From NCBI RefSeq assembly GCF_036347135.1, contig NZ_CP108938.1, positions 5,766,001 to 5,830,000 on the forward strand: DNA of 64,000 nucleotides. Direction: 5' to 3'. Positions 46,759 to 59,485 of this stretch are shown here, piece after piece; position 1 is the stretch's first letter; each line of letters begins with the position of its first letter. Both the position numbers and the translations under genes were made by a program. Source of the stretch: Streptomyces sp. NBC_00775. Lineage in GTDB: Bacteria; Actinomycetota; Actinomycetes; Streptomycetales; Streptomycetaceae. Under the pieces are notes generated by a model, which did no database searches, was not told where the DNA came from, and was given only the letters and a program-made list of their open reading frames with translations.

Positions 46759-47469
46759 ATGAGCACACCGAGTACTGGGCAGCCGCCCGGAGCCGTGTCA
46801 CTGACCCGTACGAGCCCACGGGCGGCACGGACGGAACGGATGGAACGGACGGAACGGACGAGAGGGACGGAACGGACGGGAGGGGTGGCCGCCCGGCCAC
46901 CGGTGCAGCGCACCGACAGCAACCCGCTGTCCGCCGACCCGGCCCCGCACGACCTCGCCGTGCTCCGGCTGCCCGAGCTGCGGACGCTGCGCCGGGACGC
47001 CCAGCGGGACGAGGCCGACCTCAGCTATGTGCGGCGGCTGCTCCAGGGACGCATCGACATCCTGCGGGCCGAGCTGGCGCGCCGCGGGAAGCGGCGGGCG
47101 CCCTCCCCGGCCTCGGGCCGGCTGTCGGTCGTCGGGCCCGGGGAGCCGTCGGTCGTCGAACGGCTCTCGGAGATCCTGACGGACGCACCCGCCCGGCACC
47201 GTTCGTCGGCCCGCCATGTGACAGTGGGCACACCGCACGGCGAGGAGTACCGGGCGCTGGCCGCGGACATGCTCGCCGAGGTCGAGCTGTCCGACCTGGA
47301 CGCTCGTACGGATGAGGAGCTCGGCGCCGGGATGGGACGGCTCGTCCGGTACGAGCAGCAGGTCTCCCGGCGGCGCCAGCAGCTCCAGCGCACGGCCGAC
47401 GATTGCAGCGCCGAGATCGCCCGCAGGTACCGTGAAGGCGAAGCACAAGTAGACGACCTGCTCATGTGA
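46759..47469 (+). CDS. rsiG: RsiG, c-di-GMP-dependent anti-sigma factor for WhiG
   Basis: A 236 aa helical protein that sequesters the sporulation sigma factor WhiG when bound to c-di-GMP. Both copies of the RsiG signature E-x3-S-x2-R-x3-Q-x3-D are intact: [16 protein letters not shown] in the first helix (about residue 85) and [16 protein letters not shown] in the last (about residue 203). These two helices form the coiled coil that holds the nucleotide. The N-terminal 45 residues are a low-complexity [12 protein letters not shown] stretch from a short DNA tandem repeat (46829-46880) and probably vary among strains. Confidence 0.92.
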
Positions 47470-50450: not shown

Positions 50451-50538
50451 TGCTGTGCGGTGTTACGGACTGACCGAGCTCCCGGCTCCCCTCCGGAAGG
50501 GAGCCCGGTCAGCCGGACTGCCGGACGGCGGCGTCCGA

Positions 50539-50724
50539 TCAGCCGGACTGGGCGAGCAGCATCACGAGGATCACAGCTCCGATGCCGCTGATCATGGTGT
50601 TCTTGGCCTTGAGGCCGATGGACAGCGCGACGAACGCGATGATGCCCATCGGCCCGTACTCCCACTGGATGAGCTGTTCGAATCCGACGGCGAGAGCGGC
50701 GACGGCGAGGGCGATGAGCGGCAT
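50539..50724 (-). CDS. 61-aa two-helix membrane protein, module 1
   Basis: MPLIALAVAALAVGFEQLIQ then WEYGPMGIIAFVALSIGLKA, ending in a second hydrophobic stretch (IGAVILVMLLAQSG). AGGAGGGACC precedes ATG 50724. It is divergent from the GntR-type regulator at 50893. It shares FEQL(I/V)QW-x-YGP-x-GI and GIKAK/GLKAK with the 51832 protein. Two helices with a short polar hairpin; no known family recognised. Probably controlled by the neighbouring regulator. Confidence 0.75.
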   Translation of the reverse strand: MPLIALAVAALAVGFEQLIQWEYGPMGIIAFVALSIGLKAKNTMISGIGAVILVMLLAQSG

Positions 50725-50790
50725 GGGTCCCTCCTGGTGGACAGGGCGACTCTGGCGGCCAACCTCCGGGAAGTTTGACCATGTTGCTCA

Positions 50791-50805
50791 AGTTGGCGAC
50801 CAACT
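50791..50805. promoter_or_regulatory. Operator-like palindrome, module 1
   Basis: AGTTGG-CGA-CCAACT, perfect 6-bp arms with a 3-nt centre, lies 67 nt before the small membrane-protein start and recurs in module 2 with only the centre changed. Confidence 0.7.
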
Positions 50806-50853
50806 CACTCTTACTTATCTCCGCGTTGGGTCGACTCATAACCACCTACCAAG

Positions 50854-50895
50854 CAACTGCCCAAAGATGGCGGGAAGTTGTAGTGTTTGGTCGTG
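50854..50895 (+). promoter_or_regulatory. Regulator promoter, module 1 (conserved with module 2)
   Basis: CAACT-N17-AGTTG (50854-50880) is followed directly by -10 TAGTGT, then TTGGTC and GTG 50893. Module 2 has exactly the same spacing and words. Transcription should begin at or near the GTG, giving a leaderless mRNA, with the inverted repeat covering the -35 zone. Confidence 0.75.
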
Positions 50896-51795
50896 GACCC
50901 GGAACACGTCGCCGTCAATGGGCGGAACAGGTCACCACGGCCCCAGAGGTCACACCGTGAGGTTGCCGACGAACTGCGCAGCCGGATCAGGTCCGGTGAG
51001 CTGCGGCCGGGACAGCGCATGCCCACGCAGGTCAAGCTGGCGGACGAGTTCGGCGTCGAGCGCGGCACCGTACGCCAGGCGTTGCGCATCCTGCAGTCGG
51101 AGCATCTGCTCGTCAACGTGTCCAGGGGGAGCCCAGCGACCGTCGCCGACAACCTGGCCAGGGCTCTGACCGGCCCCGAAGCCCCGCCGCAGCCCACCAC
51201 GGTGGCGCTCGGCGCGAGGATCGCGGCCGCCTTCGCGGCCCCCCATGTGGAGATCGACGCGCTGTGTCTGACGTCGATCTCGCTGACCCTCGCCATGGGC
51301 GAACCGCTGCGTCAGATTCACGCGGGGCGAATAAAACCGGCCAGGGTGGACGTCCGCCTGTTGCTGCCCAGTGGCGACATCGACCTTGCCTTCCCGGCCC
51401 CCGTCGACGCTTCCGCGGACGGCCGGCTCCAGCGCAACTGGCTGGCCAACCGCAACGCCCAGGGCCAGGTGCTGCGCCACAACCTGCTCGCCCTGCGCTC
51501 CACGCACGGCATCGACGTGAACGTCACCTTCCGCGCGCTCCCCTTCACCCCGCCCGTGAAGCTGTATCTGCTCAACGGCGCCGAGGCTCTCTTCGCGTAC
51601 TACACCCTCACCAAGCGCGAGGAGGAGATCGACGATGTGCACCTGGAGATGTACGACGTCCAGGGCACCCAGTCCATGCTCTTCCCTTTCACCCAGGGCG
51701 CCGGGCTGCGGGACACGACGTTCGTGGAGCAGTCCCATCTGTGGTTCAACGCACTGTGGGAGACCATCAGCTCGGAGCTGCTGCTCACGAGCTGA
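50893..51795 (+). CDS. GntR-type regulator with unrecognised C-terminal domain, module 1
   Basis: About 300 aa. Winged helix at residues about 20-85: HREVADELRSRIRSGELRPG, LPTQ-like MPTQVKLADEFGVERGTVRQ and ALRILQSEHLLVNVSRG. The C-terminal 200 residues are neither FadR nor HutC type: VDVRLLLPSGDIDLAFPAPV, HGIDVNVTFRALPFTPPVKL, YLLNGAEALFAYYTLTKREE and FVEQSHLWFNALWETIS. GTG 50893 is favoured because the N-terminal VDPEHVAVNG has a counterpart in module 2. The domain may be a degenerate PLD-like sensor, as the F-x5-W-F-x2-LW ending suggests. It likely controls the divergent membrane protein. Confidence 0.82.
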   Translation: MDPEHVAVNGRNRSPRPQRSHREVADELRSRIRSGELRPGQRMPTQVKLADEFGVERGTVRQALRILQSEHLLVNVSRGSPATVADNLARALTGPEAPPQPTTVALGARIAAAFAAPHVEIDALCLTSISLTLAMGEPLRQIHAGRIKPARVDVRLLLPSGDIDLAFPAPVDASADGRLQRNWLANRNAQGQVLRHNLLALRSTHGIDVNVTFRALPFTPPVKLYLLNGAEALFAYYTLTKREEEIDDVHLEMYDVQGTQSMLFPFTQGAGLRDTTFVEQSHLWFNALWETISSELLLTS

Positions 51796-51831
51796 GGCCT
51801 CCCGGACCTGCCGGTCGGAGATCCTCGCAGC

Positions 51832-52020
51832 TCACAGGGCTGGTCCGGCGATCATCAAGGCGAGCACGACCGCCCCGATGGAGCTGCAGGTGGGGCTCTT
51901 GGCCTTGATGCCGATGCTGAGCAGCAGCAGTCCGACGATGCCTGTCGGGCCGTAGTGCCACTGGACGAGCTGCTCGAAACCGACGACGAAGACGGCGGAG
52001 AGGAGGGCGATGGCGGGCAT
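51832..52020 (-). CDS. 62-aa two-helix membrane protein, module 2
   Basis: MPAIALLSAVFVVGFEQLVQ then WHYGPTGIVGLLLLSIGIKA, and an end helix IGAVVLALMIAGPAL. AGGAGGAACCACC precedes ATG 52020. It is a clear paralogue of the 50539 protein, with a longer centre around two extra residues including a Cys (KSPTCSSIG). It is divergent from the module 2 regulator. Function unknown. Confidence 0.75.
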   Translation of the reverse strand: MPAIALLSAVFVVGFEQLVQWHYGPTGIVGLLLLSIGIKAKSPTCSSIGAVVLALMIAGPAL

Positions 52021-52060
52021 GGTGGTTCCTCCTGTTGCAGAGAGGGAAGCAAAACTTCCG

Positions 52061-52087
52061 CCAACTTGGCCAAGTTGGCAACCAACT
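52061..52087. promoter_or_regulatory. Overlapping operator palindromes, module 2
   Basis: CCAACTTGGCCAAGTTGG (52061-52078) is a perfect 18-bp palindrome. It overlaps AGTTGG-CAA-CCAACT (52073-52087), the same operator type seen in module 1. Located 41 nt before the small membrane-protein start. Confidence 0.75.
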
Positions 52088-52135
52088 ATGCTTAAGTTGT
52101 CCCCACTTGGCTACTAGTCATAAACAACTCTCAAG

Positions 52136-52177
52136 CAACTCCCCATAGATGGATGAGAGTTGTAGCGTTTGGTCGTG
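52136..52177 (+). promoter_or_regulatory. Regulator promoter, module 2 (conserved with module 1)
   Basis: CAACT-N17-AGTTG (52136-52162), -10 TAGCGT, TTGGTC, then GTG 52175: spacing identical to module 1. Confidence 0.75.
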
Positions 52178-53059
52178 ACCCAGGAGAACGTGGCAGTGAA
52201 CGGCAGCAGAAGGCTTTCGCCCCAGGAGATCGCCGACGTCCTGCGGGAGCGGATCCGTGTGGGAGACCTCAAGGCGGGCGACCGTCTGCCCACCCAGGCC
52301 GATTTGGCAGAGGAATTCGGCGTCGAGCGCGGCACTGTCCGGCAGGCCCTGCGCGCCCTCCAGGACGACGGTCTCCTCAGCAACGTCAGCAAGGGCAGTC
52401 CGCCGCGCATCGCCGACATTCCCCGGATGCGGGACGAGCCCCAGCCGACGATGGTGGGGCTGGCGCCACGCCTCACCGAGGCGTTCTCCGTGCCGCACGT
52501 CCGCGTGGACGCCGCCTGCCTCACCGCGGAGACGCTGATGGTGGCCCTGAGCGAGCCGGTCCGCCTGATCCACGACGGCAAGATCCGGCCCGAGTCGATC
52601 GACGTCCGCATCCTGCTGCCCTCCCGGGACATCACCCTCGCGTTCCCGGTCCCGGTGGAGGGCCGCGGCGACGACGACCCCGTCCACCAGCGCTGGCTCA
52701 AGCAGCGCAACGCCCAGGGCCACGTCCTGCGCCACAACCTCCACTCCCTGCGCTCCTCGCACGGCATCGACGTCCGAGTGACCTTCCGCGCCCTGCCGTT
52801 CACCCCGCCGGTGAAGCTGTACCTGCTCAACGGCTCGGAGGCGCTCATCGCGTACTACATGATCACCAGGCGTGAGGAGACCGTGGAGAGCGGAGACTCG
52901 GACATCACCTTGGACATGTATGACACCCTCGGCTCCGAGTCCCTCCTCTTCTCCTTCGAGAAGCGAGCCGGCCAGCGGGACGCCGCCTTCGTGGAGCAAT
53001 CCCAGAAGTGGTTCGACGCCCTCTGGGAAACCATCACCACGGACCTGACACTCTCCTAG
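52175..53059 (+). CDS. GntR-type regulator with unrecognised C-terminal domain, module 2
   Basis: About 294 aa, close paralogue of the 50893 regulator: EIADVLRERIRVGDLKAGDR, LPTQADLAEEFGVERGTVRQ, ALRALQDDGLLSNVSKGSPP; then IDVRILLPSRDITLAFPVPV, GIDVRVTFRALPFTPPVKLY, LLNGSEALIAYYMITRREET and FVEQSQKWFDALWETIT. GTG 52175 fits a leaderless start; GTG 52196, with AGGAG 9 nt upstream, is the alternative. Its stop overlaps the HAD gene start by 1 nt, so the hydrolase is translated from the same mRNA and probably belongs to the same response. Confidence 0.84.
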   Translation: MTQENVAVNGSRRLSPQEIADVLRERIRVGDLKAGDRLPTQADLAEEFGVERGTVRQALRALQDDGLLSNVSKGSPPRIADIPRMRDEPQPTMVGLAPRLTEAFSVPHVRVDAACLTAETLMVALSEPVRLIHDGKIRPESIDVRILLPSRDITLAFPVPVEGRGDDDPVHQRWLKQRNAQGHVLRHNLHSLRSSHGIDVRVTFRALPFTPPVKLYLLNGSEALIAYYMITRREETVESGDSDITLDMYDTLGSESLLFSFEKRAGQRDAAFVEQSQKWFDALWETITTDLTLS

Positions 53060-53796
53060 TGACTTCTGATACGGCGCAGACTGATTCGGTGGCAACAGAG
53101 ACAGAGAACCTACGGGAAGTGATCAACCGCGCCCGCTTCGTGCTCTTCGACTTCGACGGGCCGATCTGCCGGTTGTTCGCGGGGCATTCGGCGGAGGATG
53201 TGGCCAGGGATCTGGTCGACTGGCTCGAGCGGCAGGGGCTGCGGGGGCTGCTGACCGAGGAGGAGCGGGTCCATCCCGACCCGATGGTGGTCCTCTACGC
53301 GGTCGACCGGCGGCATCCGCAGAGCGATCTGGTGACCGAGCTGGAGGAGCGGCTCACCCAGCAGGAACTCAAGGCGGCACCTTCCGCCTGGCCCACCCCG
53401 TACGCGGATCCGCTGATACGTACCTGGAGTGCCGTCGGCGCCAGGCTGGCCATCGCGACCAACAACTCGGCCCGCACCGTGGCCAGTTACCTCGCGAGCC
53501 GCGATCTCGCCGGCTGCTTCGCCCCCAACATCTACGGCCGCACCCAGAACCTGCGCCACCTCAAGCCCGACCCGCACTGCCTCAACCGGGCGCTGAACGC
53601 CCTGGGCGCCGCCCCGTCGTCCGCGCTCATGATCGGCGACGCCCCCTCGGACTTCGTCGCCGCGCAGCGGGCCGGAGTTCCGTTCCTCGGCTACGCGCGT
53701 AACGAGGACAAGGAGAAGCTGCTGCGGGACGCGGGAGCCGAGAATGTGGTGGGGTCGCTGGAGCCGGTCCTGCGGGTGCTCCGGGGTCAGGCCTGA
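53059..53796 (+). CDS. HAD-superfamily hydrolase, paired with module 2 regulator
   Basis: A 245 aa phosphatase-like enzyme. Motif I is VLFDFDGPICR (Asp nucleophile), motif II IATNNSARTVASYL, the Lys is in HLKPDPHCLNRAL, and motif IV is MIGDAPSDFVAAQ. A helical cap (residues 30-110) lies between motifs I and II, as in phosphoglycolate phosphatase-like HADs. It overlaps the regulator by 1 nt and converges with the small membrane protein at 53787. It may dephosphorylate the ligand or the product of the neighbouring kinases; this is inference. Confidence 0.85.
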   Translation: MTSDTAQTDSVATETENLREVINRARFVLFDFDGPICRLFAGHSAEDVARDLVDWLERQGLRGLLTEEERVHPDPMVVLYAVDRRHPQSDLVTELEERLTQQELKAAPSAWPTPYADPLIRTWSAVGARLAIATNNSARTVASYLASRDLAGCFAPNIYGRTQNLRHLKPDPHCLNRALNALGAAPSSALMIGDAPSDFVAAQRAGVPFLGYARNEDKEKLLRDAGAENVVGSLEPVLRVLRGQA

Positions 53797-53975
53797 AGCT
53801 GCAGGGTGAGCAGGACGAAGAGGAAAGCCGCCCATCCGGCCAGTCGTGGATGCCCCGCCCGTACGCCCACCAGCGCCAGGGTCAGCAGGACCAGACCCGC
53901 GAACCCCAGCTCCGTCTGCACCAGTTGAGCCATCCCGAACTCGACGGCCGCACCCACCACCTGAAAGATGACCAT
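53787..53975 (-). CDS. 62-aa two-helix membrane protein, module 3
   Basis: MVIFQVVGAAVEFGMAQLVQ then TELGFAGLVLLTLALVGVRA and a terminal helix AGWAAFLFVLLTLQLQA. The start at ATG 53975 is favoured over GTG 53993 because GGGGGAC sits just before it and the length then matches the other two. It shares the F-x-x-LVQ-x-x-x-G-x-x-G(I/L) pattern but is more divergent than modules 1 and 2. Its 3' end overlaps the HAD gene by 10 nt. It is divergent from the regulator at 54169. Confidence 0.68.
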   Translation of the reverse strand: MVIFQVVGAAVEFGMAQLVQTELGFAGLVLLTLALVGVRAGHPRLAGWAAFLFVLLTLQLQA

Positions 53976-54039
53976 GTCCCCCACCCCGTCCACTTCACGG
54001 ACACTTCACTGGACACTTCACTGATTTGATCAACCAACC

Positions 54040-54139
54040 GTCCAATTGGACTGGTTGACTTGAAATTGGTTTGCCCGACTGGGCTGATCCCTTAACTGGC
54101 AGTCAAGGTGGACTTCCGATTTGACTGAAACTGGTTTGC
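54040..54139. promoter_or_regulatory. Control region of module 3: palindrome and long direct repeat
   Basis: GTCCAATTGGAC (54040-54051) is a perfect 12-bp palindrome. A near-identical direct repeat follows, TTGACT(T)GAAA(T/C)TGGTTTGC, at 54055-54074 and 54121-54139. GTG 54169 lies 6 nt after TACGGT, again a leaderless start. Sequences differ from the modules 1-2 operator. Confidence 0.6.
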
Positions 54140-54168
54140 TTGTCGGTCGGAAGCGGTACGGTCGGCAT

Positions 54169-55041
54169 GTGGGCGATGAGCGGACCGGTGACGGGGGTGG
54201 CAAGGAGTTCCGGCGTGTCCTGGACGAGCTGCGCAACCGCATGGTCAACGGGCGCTACGCGCTAGGCAGTTCGCTGCCGGCCCAGCGGCTCCTGGCCGAT
54301 GAGTTCGACGTGTCCCGGGACACCGTTCAGCGAGTGCTGAAGACCCTGGCGAGCGAGGGCTGGGTCGAGTCCCGGCAGGGCAGTGGATCCCGGGTGGTCA
54401 AGACCCAGCGGATACAGCCGGCGGTCCTGCAGAGCGCGAAGCCCCGCCCCATGGCTCTCGGCCCGATCATCAGCAAGGCCTTCGGGCGGGCCGAGGTCAG
54501 CCTGGACGTCTTCACGCTGACCGGCGAATCCCTCGACCTCCACGTGCGGTTGCAGGCGGAGCGCATACGTGCGGAGCCGGACACCGCACCGCAGCGCGTC
54601 ACCGTACGCATTCTGGTGCCTTCCGAGGAAGTCGATCTGCCCTTCCCCCGGTTCAAGGACGATCCGTCCGACCGGCGCCCGGTGGAGCGGGTGTGGGACA
54701 TCGCGCGCCGGTCGGCGTCCTCGCTGCGGTACGTCCTTGAATCGCTGAGGGTCGAGAAACTGGTGCCGGAGGTCAGCCTGGAGATCCGGCACACACCGGT
54801 GGTGCCGACCTTCAAGTTCTATCTGCTCAACGGCTCGGAGACGCTGTTCGGGCTGTACCAGGTGGTCGAGCGCCCGATCGTCCTGGACGACGGCGAGGAG
54901 CTGACCGTCGTCGACGTCGAAGGGGTCGGCGCCAATCTCATGCACTACGAGCGGGACACCGCCCCGGACTCCCCGGGATCCTTCTTCGTGGACAGCATGC
55001 AGACCTACTTCGACTCGGTGTGGACCCTCCTTTCGGAGTAG
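54169..55041 (+). CDS. GntR-type regulator with unrecognised C-terminal domain, module 3
   Basis: About 290 aa, distant paralogue of 50893 and 52175. Winged helix: FRRVLDELRNRMVNGRYALG, LPAQRLLADEFDVSRDTVQR and VLKTLASEGWVESRQGSG. C-terminal domain: VTVRILVPSEEVDLPFPRFK, VSLEIRHTPVVPTFKFYLLN, GSETLFGLYQVVERPIV and a closing SMQTYFDSVWTLLSE. GTG 54169 is chosen for its -10 spacing. The 3' end overlaps the second HAD gene, on the other strand, by 37 nt. Same role as the other two is inferred. Confidence 0.82.
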   Translation: MGDERTGDGGGKEFRRVLDELRNRMVNGRYALGSSLPAQRLLADEFDVSRDTVQRVLKTLASEGWVESRQGSGSRVVKTQRIQPAVLQSAKPRPMALGPIISKAFGRAEVSLDVFTLTGESLDLHVRLQAERIRAEPDTAPQRVTVRILVPSEEVDLPFPRFKDDPSDRRPVERVWDIARRSASSLRYVLESLRVEKLVPEVSLEIRHTPVVPTFKFYLLNGSETLFGLYQVVERPIVLDDGEELTVVDVEGVGANLMHYERDTAPDSPGSFFVDSMQTYFDSVWTLLSE

Positions 55042-55841
55042 TCGTCCAGGAGCTCCCGGGCCGCGGCGATGACCGGGGCGTGTGACGAGACCACCCCGTC
55101 CGCCTTGTTGCGCCTCATCTGCTGCCGGCGCTTCCTGTCCTGGGTGTATCCGAGGAAGCGGACCCCCGCGGACCTGGCCGCCCGCAGATCGGTGAGCTGA
55201 TCGCCCACCAGCAGGGCCCGGGAGGGATGCAGCCCGCCCAGGTCTTCCAGCGCGCGGAGCACCACGTCGGGATCGGGCTTCATCCGACGTGGTTCGCGCG
55301 GATCGCGGCCGTGGACCGCGACGAACTTCGACTCCAGGCCCGCATGCTTGAGGTAATGCCAGATGGGTTCATCGGCGTTGTTGCTCACGATGACCAGGCG
55401 CTTGCCGAGGTCGAGCAGTGCGTCCAGCAAGTTCTCGACATCCGGGGCCTGAACGGCGGAATTTACAGCGGTGTATTCATGCCCGGTAACGATGGTGTTC
55501 GCCAGGCCCAGAGGCACCCGGTTGCGAACCGCCGGGGCCTCCCCGTCCAGCATGTCCCGGAGACGTTGGAGGATCCCGTGCGAGTCGTCGCAGTCCTCGA
55601 CCTTCCGGTCGAGAGTGCCCCATTCGAGCCGCGCCATGACCTTGATCTCCTCGGCGATGTGCGCGGTCGGCACGTCACCGAACAGGTCACAGACAGGGCC
55701 GTCGAAATCGAGGAGCACCGCGTCCGCGTCGCGCACGAGCCGCCTCAGGTCCTGTCCGCCGCGTCTGCCCCACAGGGGCCTCTTCGCTTTCACCCCGACA
55801 GTGTGGACCACGAGGACCGGCACGCCGCGATTGCGCGACAC
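55005..55841 (-). CDS. HAD-superfamily hydrolase, convergent with module 3 regulator
   Basis: A phosphatase-like protein of up to 278 aa. Motif I is VLLDFDGPVCDLF, motif II IVSNNADEPIWHYL, Lys in RRMKPDPDVVLRAL and motif IV LVGDQLTDLRAARS. It is paralogous to the 53059 HAD (same FDGP(I/V)C and KPDP features). The start could be GTG 55841 or GTG 55793 (VKAKRPLWGRRGGQDLRRL); neither has a good ribosome site. Substrate unknown. Confidence 0.8.
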   Translation of the reverse strand: MSRNRGVPVLVVHTVGVKAKRPLWGRRGGQDLRRLVRDADAVLLDFDGPVCDLFGDVPTAHIAEEIKVMARLEWGTLDRKVEDCDDSHGILQRLRDMLDGEAPAVRNRVPLGLANTIVTGHEYTAVNSAVQAPDVENLLDALLDLGKRLVIVSNNADEPIWHYLKHAGLESKFVAVHGRDPREPRRMKPDPDVVLRALEDLGGLHPSRALLVGDQLTDLRAARSAGVRFLGYTQDRKRRQQMRRNKADGVVSSHAPVIAAARELLDDYSERRVHTESK

Positions 55842-56086: not shown

Positions 56087-57187
56087 ATGTCCGAATCGGC
56101 TTCCTTGGCTCGGCAGCGAGCCGTTGAGGTGAGTGGCAACGCGAACGTGGTCGAAGGACCACTCCAGGGCTACCACCACGAGACCTATGTGTTTCCGCTG
56201 CCCGGTGGGGACGAAACGGTTGAGCAGGTCCGCTGGAAGTGCCGTGAACCGCGCGCCAACCTGCTGTGGTTCGACCGGCGTTGCTTCGCCTCCGAGGAGC
56301 AGTTGCTCCGCGCTCTTCAGGGACACATCACGGGTATCCCCGACATCATCCAGGCGGGGCCCGTCGGTCTTCAGCGGTTCATCGAGGGAGAGACGCTGGG
56401 AGCGCGGTACGGGTCCGGTCGTGCGATCTCCTCTTCCCTCTTCCTGCAAATCGTCGAACTCTTCCGGCAGTTGGTTGCCGTACGACCTGAAGTACTCACC
56501 GTGAAGCGGACGTGTGAACCCAAGGACCGTGCGACCGAAGGCGACAGCTCCGGCTTCCTGGACCGGCTGATCTGCTTCACCGAAGAGCGCGTGTACCAGG
56601 AGAACCTGGGCGACTTCGAGGTCCTGTTCGGATCCCTCGGGGTGGACGGCGACGCCTTCAAACGGCTCAGAAAACATGTGTCGGGACTGACCGAACGCCC
56701 GTTCTGTCTTCTTCATGCGGATCTTCATCGCGAGAACTTCGTCGTCGACCGGGAGGACCAGCTCTGGACGATCGACTGGGAGTTGGCGATGCTCGGCGAT
56801 CCGCTCTACGACCTGGCCACCCACCTCTACCTGATGCGCTACCCGAGGCCCCAGCAGCGCAGGATGGCGCAGTACTGGAGGGATGCCGTCGAGGGTGTCG
56901 TCCCCGGAAGCTCGGCCGGATGGGAAGAGGATCTGCCCAGACTGCTCGACTACAAGCGGGCTCAGTCGCTCTTCACGGATGTCATCCGGATGTCCCTGTC
57001 GTTGGGCGCGGGCCCGGTGGGCGACGAACGTCTCCTCACTCGTGCGGGCGGCAAAATACAGCGCGTGCTGGCAGCCGCGGCGGAGCCGTTGGGGCTCGAA
57101 AGAGTGCCGGGCATGCGACAGATCACGGGTTCACTCGTTCGCTGGTATCAGGATCACAAGGAGTTCCGTACGGAGCGCGCGCTGTAA
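56087..57187 (+). CDS. Aminoglycoside phosphotransferase-like kinase
   Basis: A 366 aa APH-fold kinase. Catalytic loop LLHADLHRENFVVDRE (Asp), metal motif TIDWELAMLGDPLYDLATHL (DFG-like Asp), with LVRWYQDHK at the end. The N-lobe begins VVEGPLQGYHHETYVFPLPG, and the usual Lys is probably in EQVRWKCREPRANLL. ATG 56087 follows GAGAGAAC. The same fold phosphorylates antibiotics, sugars, choline or homoserine, so the substrate is open. It closely resembles the first half of the 740-aa protein at 57263. It precedes that gene by 75 nt. Confidence 0.85.
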   Translation: MSESASLARQRAVEVSGNANVVEGPLQGYHHETYVFPLPGGDETVEQVRWKCREPRANLLWFDRRCFASEEQLLRALQGHITGIPDIIQAGPVGLQRFIEGETLGARYGSGRAISSSLFLQIVELFRQLVAVRPEVLTVKRTCEPKDRATEGDSSGFLDRLICFTEERVYQENLGDFEVLFGSLGVDGDAFKRLRKHVSGLTERPFCLLHADLHRENFVVDREDQLWTIDWELAMLGDPLYDLATHLYLMRYPRPQQRRMAQYWRDAVEGVVPGSSAGWEEDLPRLLDYKRAQSLFTDVIRMSLSLGAGPVGDERLLTRAGGKIQRVLAAAAEPLGLERVPGMRQITGSLVRWYQDHKEFRTERAL

Positions 57188-57262: not shown

Positions 57263-59485
57263 GTGGGCGTACCTCCTGTCCCGCGTGCCTTGTCCCGGGA
57301 CTTCACCGGCGACGACGCGTATGACGAGTTCATCCATGCGGCGCTGCTGTACGGGGCGGCGAGCGGGGGTCATCACAACTCCAACTACGTTGCTCCGTTG
57401 ACGCAGCGCATGGCCCGGCTTCTCGGCCAGGAGGCGGGCACGCACGTGACCGTCCGGGTCCGGCGGACCGAGGCACTGCCGGTGGTGATCAGGACCTGGC
57501 CGGACGAGGCGGAGCTCCTCGACGGGGTCGCGTGCGTACTGCCCCATGTCCCGCGCTGCCTGGCCAGGCGCGAGGGTTCGGCCATCCACAGCTATGTGGA
57601 GGGCGTACCGCTCGAAAGCATCTGCCCGAACGGCAAGCCGGTCGACGGTCTGCTGGTCAAGGCGCTGGCCGATCTGCTCGCGCAGATGTCGCGGGTGGGC
57701 AGGGAACACCTGCCGCCACTGCCCGGCTGCTGGCCGCACGGCTCCCATGACAGCCGGGGGTTTCTGCGAACACTCGCCCATCTCGCGGACCAGCAGATCC
57801 GGGACCCCAACTGGGCGGAGTTCGGTGGGCTGTTCGCGGCTCTGGGCGTATCAGGCGACGCGATGACGGAGTTCGGCCGGCGGGTTCCCGCCATGGCGCG
57901 CCGCCCGTACAGCCTGCTCCACGCGGACCTGCACCGTGACAACGTGATCGTGGCCTACGGCGTCGACCCTCCACTGATCTGCGTCGACTGGGAGCTCGCG
58001 ACCTACGGCGACCCCCTGCACGATCTCGCCACCCATCTGGTCCGTATGCGGTACCCGGAGTTCCAGTGGGAAGAGGTGATCGACGCGTGGGCCGGCAGCG
58101 TTGAGGCCGTGCGGCCCGCGGCCGTGCGAGGCCTGGCGCGGGACCTGCGCCATTACATAGCCTTCGAGCGCGCCCAGTCGGTGTTCCCCGACGTGATGCG
58201 CGCGGTCAGGTCCCTGGACGGCTCGCCCGAGCAGAAGACCCTGGACGCCGCGACGGCGGCGGTGCACAGGGCGCTGGAGGCGGCCGCCGAACCGCTGATG
58301 CTCCCTCATGTGCCCGACGAGAACGAGATCGAGCGGCTTCTGCTGCGCCGGCAGGCCGGCAGTCGGGCCACGGCAAGAGATACCCGTCCCGTCCCGGTCA
58401 TGCACTGGAGACCGGACGACCGGATGCCCGAGCATCCCGATTTCCCCCGGTCGGCAGTGCTCGGCGCGTTGCTCGCCGAGGCGGTGGTCCCGGCGGAGCG
58501 CGTGCTCAAGGGCACCGCGCACGTCAACTCGGTCGTGTACGTCCGGGGTGTCCAGGACCCGGTCGTCGTGCGCCGCAACCTGGCGTCGGTCCGCCGCACC
58601 GAGTCCCGCTTCCTCAGCGAACACGCGGTGCTCGGGGCCATCGAACGTTCCGGTCTGCCGGTGCGAGTGCCGCGCGTGCTGGCACTGGGCGAGAGCCTCT
58701 ACGAGAGCCCCCGGGCGAGTGACCCGTTCGCCATCCACACCTACGTCGGGCCGCTCGACGGCGACCATCCTCCCAACCACCCGGTGCACGGCCTCCTCCC
58801 GCACGAGGCGGACGGACTCGTGGACCAGCTCTGTGCGCTGACCGAGCTCGACTACCTGGGACTGGATCCGCTGGGGGCGGACCTCGGGTTCTGCTTCTGC
58901 GACTGGCTGAAGGAACAACTGGTCGACCTGGTCCGGAAGCTGCCCAAGGGGTCGCGGCAAATGGCACGGCAACTGGGGCTGCCCGACCCCGGCGTACTGC
59001 ACCAGATACTTTCCCGGTACCAGGTGACATTGCGGCAGCCGGCCCTGCTGCACGGCGACCTCAACCCCTGGAACCTCGTGCGCCGCGACGACGGGTTCGC
59101 GCTCACCCTCATCGACTGGGAGCGGGCGATGGTCGGCGACCCGCTGTACGACCTGGTCCGGCACATGCATCTCACGCCCACCTTGCCCGAGATCCGCGAC
59201 CGTATGTTCCGCCGCTGGGCGACCAGGCTCCCCGTTGTGTACACCTGGGCCTGGGAAGAGGACTGGCGCGTGTACCGCTGGCTGGAGATCATCCGCTCCG
59301 CCTACGTGGACCTGGACCGGCTGCTCGCTCGCGCCGACCTCGAAGCCCCCAACGTGAACCGGGCCGTGGACTCGTACGGGACGACCCTGGAGGCCGCCAT
59401 AGCGGCGCTGGGGCTGCCGCCGCGGCCGACGGCGAACCCCTATCTGGCGCGGGCGCTGCTGCACGGTGTCCACAGCGGCGGCTGA
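57263..59485 (+). CDS. Tandem double-domain aminoglycoside-phosphotransferase-like kinase
   Basis: A 740 aa protein made of two complete APH-fold kinases. Domain 1 (about residues 1-370) has LLHADLHRDNVIVAYG and CVDWELATYGDPLHDLATHL, closely like the 56087 kinase. Domain 2 (about 390-735) has LLHGDLNPWNLVRRDD and LIDWERAMVGDPLYDLVRHM and is more divergent. Both catalytic Asp and metal Asp residues are present in each, so both could be active. GTG 57263 follows AAGGAG at 57251. Two kinases in one chain could phosphorylate one substrate twice or two related compounds. Confidence 0.87.
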   Translation: MGVPPVPRALSRDFTGDDAYDEFIHAALLYGAASGGHHNSNYVAPLTQRMARLLGQEAGTHVTVRVRRTEALPVVIRTWPDEAELLDGVACVLPHVPRCLARREGSAIHSYVEGVPLESICPNGKPVDGLLVKALADLLAQMSRVGREHLPPLPGCWPHGSHDSRGFLRTLAHLADQQIRDPNWAEFGGLFAALGVSGDAMTEFGRRVPAMARRPYSLLHADLHRDNVIVAYGVDPPLICVDWELATYGDPLHDLATHLVRMRYPEFQWEEVIDAWAGSVEAVRPAAVRGLARDLRHYIAFERAQSVFPDVMRAVRSLDGSPEQKTLDAATAAVHRALEAAAEPLMLPHVPDENEIERLLLRRQAGSRATARDTRPVPVMHWRPDDRMPEHPDFPRSAVLGALLAEAVVPAERVLKGTAHVNSVVYVRGVQDPVVVRRNLASVRRTESRFLSEHAVLGAIERSGLPVRVPRVLALGESLYESPRASDPFAIHTYVGPLDGDHPPNHPVHGLLPHEADGLVDQLCALTELDYLGLDPLGADLGFCFCDWLKEQLVDLVRKLPKGSRQMARQLGLPDPGVLHQILSRYQVTLRQPALLHGDLNPWNLVRRDDGFALTLIDWERAMVGDPLYDLVRHMHLTPTLPEIRDRMFRRWATRLPVVYTWAWEEDWRVYRWLEIIRSAYVDLDRLLARADLEAPNVNRAVDSYGTTLEAAIAALGLPPRPTANPYLARALLHGVHSGG

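Follow-up and report, generated by a model that had tools for sequence, protein, structure and literature searches.

What does a chromosome gain from three transcriptional regulators, packed into 5 kb, each facing away from a gene for a tiny hydrophobic protein? The question is raised by 64,000 nucleotides of the genome of Streptomyces sp. NBC_00775 (contig NZ_CP108938.1, positions 5,766,001 to 5,830,000, that is, 5.77-5.83 Mb of an 11.1-Mb single-contig genome); this whole stretch is the window to which the coordinates below refer. An initial annotation had placed three regulators and three small open reading frames (ORFs), in pairs facing apart, between positions 50,539 and 55,041, and that is where they are found: the analysis confirms three GntR regulators, with a small hydrophobic ORF divergent from each of them. 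Their site on the chromosome is a fixed one in Streptomyces and lies close to an rsiG-like gene. The cassette is real and conserved, and the searches made turned up no description of a system of this form. The reading that we consider probable makes each module a local, ligand-controlled repressor switch at a divergent promoter, with the small membrane protein as its output, and it takes in a scenario for the companion genes and for kinship with actinomycete integrative and conjugative elements (AICEs). What has been computed, and what this reading draws on, is the anatomy of the cassette and its conservation, the modelled fold, how conserved and how rare the operators are, the companions and the tree.

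The regulators are encoded on the forward strand at 50893..51795 (300 amino acids), 52175..53059 (294) and 54169..55041 (290). Conserved upstream sequence makes GTG codons at 50893, 52175 and 54169 the likely starts. A -10-like element, TAG(T/C)GT or TACGGT, stands six bases before each GTG (TAGTGT-TTGGTC-GTG for regulator 1, which is apparently leaderless), a spacing that suggests leaderless transcripts. PF00392 (GntR) matches regulators 1, 2 and 3 with E-values of 6.8e-18, 8.8e-17 and 9.1e-19 (scores of 64.5, 61.0 and 67.3 bits, where the cut-off is 27), which places them in the GntR family; the C-terminal ~200 residues are covered by no Pfam model and by no NCBIfam model at cut-off. Modules 1 and 2 are, as had been proposed, close paralogues (60% identity) and module 3 is diverged (30-37% identity to both). 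The C-terminal domain occurs in the 11.1-Mb genome in just these three copies, the other 48 of 51 matches being confined to residues 5-110, the helix-turn-helix (HTH) end. At E 1e-3 a module 2 query matches 2,801 proteins and an AICE-type query 902, in sets that may overlap.

The three small proteins lie on the reverse strand: the first at 50542..50724 (stop 50539-50541; 61 amino acids), the second at 51835..52020 (stop 51832-51834; 62 amino acids; preceded by AGGAGG, resembling a ribosome-binding site) and the third at 53787..53975 (62 amino acids from an ATG at 53975, or 68 from a GTG at 53993). The motif F-x-QL(V/I)Q-x-x-x-G that the initial annotation ascribed to all of them has to be given up for the third, which reads M-A-Q-L-V-Q, and the only invariant positions in an 11-row alignment of the family are Met1 and three glycines. 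What the proteins have in common is their hydropathy: each shows three hydrophobic peaks, the second and third being separated by a basic loop (KAK or RAG/RAR), and a membrane location is inferred. With regulators typed as m1, m2 and m3 (named by module), m3far and distant types, the ratio of nonsynonymous to synonymous substitution (dN/dS; NG86, equal-length sets of 38 of 46 unique m1 and 67 of 82 unique m2 sequences) is 0.546 for m1 and 0.429 for m2 small ORFs, in both sets the lowest of the six frames. In terms of codon substitution, this shows selection at the protein level. The regulator C-terminal domain is under stronger constraint (0.264; 45 sequences).

Is the pair conserved as a pair? 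A search for paired occurrences, which the initial annotation had proposed, bears this out: among 121 genomes of the genus, scored for small gene and regulator domain, the small gene is present in 63, the regulator domain in 76 and the two together in 62. A scan across the phylum (seven candidates scored per genome) gave 12/396, probably an undercount. In a set of 100 loci, comprising the window, 20 stretches of relatives and 79 named loci (picked as best matches to the module 1 and 2 types, some genomes entering twice and L079 and L133 apparently being one contig, so that counts are not independent), the small-protein profile finds 183 copies, 179 of them near and divergent from a regulator. 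The nearest relative of a small protein in another genome has a partner of the same type in 170/170 m1, m2 and m3 copies; the eight m3far small proteins have their nearest relative in m3far four times and in m3 four times. This matching of partner types, together with the in-frame dN/dS, indicates that the pair diverges as one unit. The initial argument was that retention of three pairs implies a function for the pair; three is not the rule, since regulators number 1-5 per locus in 80 loci (the 79 named ones and the window), with m1, m2 and m3 together in 49 and at least one small gene in 75.

Retention of the small gene is uneven: m2 85/97 (leaving out one case at a contig edge), m1 48/87, m3 38/60, m3far 8/24 and distant types 1/16. 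Neither of the two outcomes that had been named as counting against the pair, small ORFs confined to near relatives or regulators found equally often without them, is clearly seen, though lone regulators are common. In a quick tree of 215 dereplicated regulator rows (midpoint-rooted for drawing, with 90/212 inner branches below a support of 80 and a long-branch warning), all 130 rows linked to a small gene fall inside one group of 190 (support 96), on one side of a single branch, and well supported branches force at least 14 changes of the small-gene label; one gain followed by many losses is the simplest account, on our own reading of this tree. Fourteen regulator rows form a deep group of their own in which the small gene is wholly absent; nine of its rows, tightly grouped, lie in main-cluster stretches (L069:6318-6887, L071:12075-12671, and rows in L108, L125, L126, L131, L148, L158 and L165). 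An m1-type regulator at L061:2263-2475 keeps the start of the divergent promoter upstream, with no match to a small ORF.

The exceptions to pairing can be followed singly. Among the matches listed, eight places with a small gene lie more than 1.5 kb from any listed regulator: for six, spread over five genomes (G440, G480, G485, G498 twice, G510), the fetched stretches show a regulator close by; in G002 the regulator is 1.56 kb off with a HAD-type phosphatase gene between (L062); and in G493 there is none. Fourteen genomes have the regulator without the small gene. Five of these have Rep or FtsK at the locus (G005, G019, G462, G484, G516), five more hold AICE-type regulator-HAD pairs with no Rep or FtsK within the fetched stretch, three (G010, G020, G488) have chromosomal m1 or m2 types lacking the small gene, and the stretch of G438 lies outside the set fetched.

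The intergenic stretches between regulator and small gene are strongly conserved and contain putative operators. Modules 1 and 2 have one in common, AAGTTGGCRACCAACT (O1: 50790..50805, AAGTTGGCGACCAACT; 52072..52087, AAGTTGGCAACCAACT); module 3 has another type, CCGTCCAATTGGACTGGTTGA, at 54038..54058. A second inverted repeat by the start of regulator 2 (52124..52163; arms 52124-52140 and 52147-52163, 82% complementary) is a possible autoregulatory site. The whole genome has two exact copies of AAGTTGGCRACCAACT, those of modules 1 and 2, and none with one mismatch; a reversed-pattern control has no match at up to one mismatch, and at up to two mismatches the 12 matches equal the control. The module 3 operator has a single copy in the window, and its 19-base core, with as many as two mismatches allowed, has a single place in the genome; the core is present in 5/6 genomes searched, in one copy each. 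In nine other genomes 14/20 matches to the module 1/2 operator at up to one mismatch lie at the cluster; AAGTTGGCGACCATCT makes up five of the remaining six, one per genome, and the sixth is a further copy in G459; the reversed control gives two matches, both in G007. AAGTTGGCGACCATCT, which differs from the module 1/2 operator by a single mismatch, stands off the cluster in G007, G013, G024, G459 and G472, perhaps as part of a conserved coding sequence, perhaps as a distant target.

Presence of the operator tracks presence of the small gene in three types (Fisher's test: 5e-7 for m2, 4e-8 for m3 and 0.002 for m3far, values that are indicative only because the copies are related and the patterns derive from paired ones), and not clearly in m1. 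These promoter data, putative as the sites are, read most naturally as a local autoregulated circuit. The 39 m1 copies without a small gene carry a conserved GGGCTCCC...GGGAGCCC hairpin just past the operator, which in the window lies at ~50484-50505; it looks as though the small gene once stood between the two and was lost.

What does such a repressor sense? The domain that the initial annotation had to leave as unknown models as a phospholipase D (PLD) fold, likely a catalytically dead one (pseudo-PLD) that keeps the active-site lysine. The prediction for regulator 2 (pLDDT 92.3), built from a 100-row alignment of which a few rows are just 16-20% identical to the query and possibly poor members, has the fold of the PLD superfamily; of the HxK(x)4D motif of the catalytic members it retains the lysine (100/100), with histidine in 1/100, asparagine in place of the aspartate in 94/100 and aspartate in none. 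The top Foldseek match is MITD1, a poor fit with a template-modelling (TM) score of 0.25-0.31; its C-terminal domain is PLD-like, binds membranes and has no catalytic role. The matches also include TrmBL2 (5bpd; E 7e-4, TM 0.31-0.34); in TrmB proteins a winged helix is joined to a PLD-like effector domain. The VIA-align list, made from the whole-regulator model, is dominated by HTH matches. Sequence searches of the PDB gave nothing usable for the C-terminal domain, and none of 18 family C-terminal domains matches UTRA or FCD at E 1. A single-sequence AF2 model of the regulator (pLDDT 42.5) was discarded. A dead PLD fold with its active-site lysine kept would most likely sense a phosphorylated or otherwise anionic ligand.

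The same fold admits of a different use. Regulator and small membrane protein might be a protein-protein pair, the small protein tethering or releasing the regulator at the membrane in the manner of an anti-regulator and the pseudo-PLD domain docking on the small protein or on lipid head groups. The one-to-one matching of small-protein and regulator types would suit this arrangement, as would the MITD1 match, poor as its fit is; regulators of the same clade that do without a small gene (39/87 in m1), and the AICE loci considered below, where no small protein is seen, do not, and pure docking needs no link between operator and small gene such as m2 and m3 display. We regard it as unlikely.

The unit had been drawn too narrowly. 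A HAD-type phosphatase gene (53059..53796, forward strand) overlaps the stop of regulator 2 by its start (TAGTG, 53057-53061), and past module 3 lie a second HAD-type phosphatase gene on the reverse strand (55005..55841), convergent with regulator 3, and two forward-strand genes for APH-type kinases, one of 366 amino acids (56087..57187; PF01636), followed by a 740-residue protein with two APH kinase stretches (57263..59485) that has a homologue in 60/79 named loci. Both predicted HADs match PF13419 and PF00702, and the kinases PF01636, above the gathering score. APH matches are present in 86/100 loci, and in L066, L221 and L222 the arrangement is compact, with the small gene divergent from regulator-HAD-APH. 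A HAD gene lies directly downstream of m2 types in 88/98 cases and, judged by gene neighbourhood, is the more constant partner of the regulator, rather than the small gene.

That constancy might suggest a conserved regulator-HAD-kinase operon of which the small ORFs are by-products, poorly constrained neighbours with moderate dN/dS that are frequently absent. By-products would hardly have their lowest dN/dS in frame in both sets, keep a hydrophobic pattern at 22-28% identity, stand behind a presumptive ribosome-binding site (small ORF 2) or co-occur with the regulator in 62/63 genomes, and we hold this very improbable.

The chromosomal locus is, by its flanks, a recurrent site. An RsiG-like anti-sigma gene lies at 46759-47469 on the forward strand (PF22802, 1e-32), with asparaginase II and GNAT genes between it and the cluster; in the 79 named loci, where stretches often stop short of the outer genes, flank homologues number 44 for D-Tyr-tRNA deacylase, 63 for RsiG-like, 26 for asparaginase II and 66 for GNAT. 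A search of the window found no tRNA.

Nor is the system isolated on the chromosome, for the regulator family is also found in mobile elements. Distant relatives without a small gene occur in AICEs of the pSAM2 kind. One of these loci, L074, carries an integrase, RepSA (E 7e-153), FtsK and a DUF2637 gene divergent from the regulator, which is followed by a HAD, and all or part of this set recurs in L064, L225, L230, L231, L233 and L236, with a HAD adjoining the regulator in each of the seven. A small protein derived from AICEs was looked for with the small-protein profile and not seen in these loci. Among four Streptomyces plasmid records, regulator, HAD and phosphotransferase stand close together in three, and in one none is annotated; a Nocardia plasmid has the regulator with no annotated HAD or kinase nearby. 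On plasmid L185 (NZ_CP109170.1) the genes close to the regulator-HAD-phosphotransferase set include a radical SAM gene, a further HAD, a second APH and a gene annotated as cyclophane-containing RiPP N-acetyltransferase HaaN. Phage records gave no match, and PADLOC and PHROGs gave HTH-level matches only. A chromosomal AICE remnant was set aside as an origin: window positions 44-64 kb hold no match to RepSA or FtsK/TraB beside the regulators, and the flanks are common to other small clusters (D-Tyr-tRNA deacylase and RsiG-like in L062, L066, L075 and L076; asparaginase II and GNAT in L062 and L076).

This kinship invites the notion of an exclusion system: a cassette derived from, or the source of, an AICE control region, whose membrane protein or regulator hinders incoming elements in a kil-kor or Pif-like manner. 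The regulator-HAD pair and divergent layout beside AICE genes in seven loci and the variable copy number (1-5) would agree with it, and there is a precedent, in an excerpt of PMC3218068, in Pif of pSAM2, a Nudix hydrolase that confers conjugal immunity. AICE-type intergenic stretches, however, carry conserved repeats of their own, of the TTGGCTAGCCA type, that differ from the chromosomal operators, so that cross-repression is not expected from sequence; the PADLOC matches are weak, and the small-protein profile has no match in the seven AICE loci. Such a role is quite improbable.

The switch that we favor would work as follows. The GntR repressor would bind the palindrome between its own gene and the small-protein gene, keeping the small membrane protein, and probably the regulator itself, low. 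The C-terminal pseudo-PLD would most likely sense a phosphorylated or otherwise anionic ligand, made or removed by the HAD whose gene overlaps that of regulator 2 and by the APH-type kinases close by; on binding it the repressor would leave and the membrane protein be made. The family would have two branches, this one chromosomal and the other adjoining the replication and transfer genes of pSAM2-like AICEs; the cassette would have been duplicated in tandem at one fixed site near the rsiG-like gene. An extension of this scheme, which we hold rather unlikely, is an undescribed class of signalling cassettes in which GntR with pseudo-PLD sensor, HAD and APH form a phospho-ligand loop, one branch gating AICE transfer and the other a kil-like membrane protein for growth arrest or exclusion.

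In the ligand-controlled switch we infer DNA binding, repression, the class of ligand and the roles of HAD and kinases. A number of facts weigh against it. The small gene is present at 180/284 scorable regulators in the 100 loci (the same contig-edge case left out) and absent from 39/87 of m1; so frequent an absence means that the regulator must have value without it, and G493 has the small gene without any regulator match. Small-ORF dN/dS is only moderately below 1. A HAD lies within 3 kb of m1 (85/87) and m3 (60/60) regulators as one shared by the cluster, never directly downstream. The m1 operator is present in 36/39 copies without the small gene and 48/48 with it (p 0.09), and its retention after loss of the gene implies that it probably serves in part for autoregulation; moreover, the patterns used to score operators were taken from the window and paired relatives, which biases the comparison toward paired copies. 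A promoter scan recognised no sigma-70-like site. Finally, the pseudo-PLD fold could bind DNA or protein and not a small ligand.

The cassette is of interest for several reasons. A likely fold can be named for the sensor domain of a large GntR subfamily left blank by Pfam and NCBIfam, and this domain is tied to companion HAD and kinase genes. A testable link is drawn between control of mobile elements in Streptomyces and a chromosomal locus near an rsiG-like gene; a ligand for the pseudo-PLD domain would bear on the question of which signal triggers AICE transfer. With three paralogous switches and two types of putative operator, the 5 kb also make a test bed for the splitting of repressor specificity after duplication.

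How much of this is familiar? The annotation knew of no described system of this form, and none of exactly this form was found, in a literature that largely excludes subscription journals. A GntR regulator with a divergent target is ordinary; the pseudo-PLD sensor, the HAD and kinase company, the AICE kinship and the split of operator types in a tandem array are new. The available excerpts of PMC3218068 mention GntR relatives of KorSA and Nudix-based immunity, and those of PMC9513070 aminoglycoside phosphotransferase cargo; the word 'haloacid' has no occurrence in the main text of either. SCO3932, the AICE-borne GntR regulator of S. coelicolor, binds two sites in the intergenic region with its neighbour gene and also binds promoters of secondary metabolism, according to PMC8584621. 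KorSA of pSAM2 and SCO3932 are like the present regulators in the GntR HTH, and the AICE branch of the family occupies the same kind of place, a likeness by description. Unlike these, the chromosomal branch is paired divergently with a small membrane protein, and its surroundings in the window give no match to RepSA or FtsK; and whereas the keywords of the SCO3932 paper list HutC (PMC8584621), the present C-terminal domains have no UTRA match (0/18) and model as pseudo-PLD. From the FadR, HutC and MocR subfamilies at large the regulators differ in having no FCD, UTRA or aminotransferase match past the HTH. The PLD nucleases Nuc, NucT and Zucchini are HKD enzymes; the present domain, with its histidine in 1/100 and asparagine for aspartate in 94/100, has by sequence no working HKD. 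TrmBL2 is comparable in design, a DNA-binding domain joined to a PLD-like one; it is archaeal, has the TrmB and not the GntR HTH and aligns with a low TM score; the parallel is one of design and does not imply kinship.

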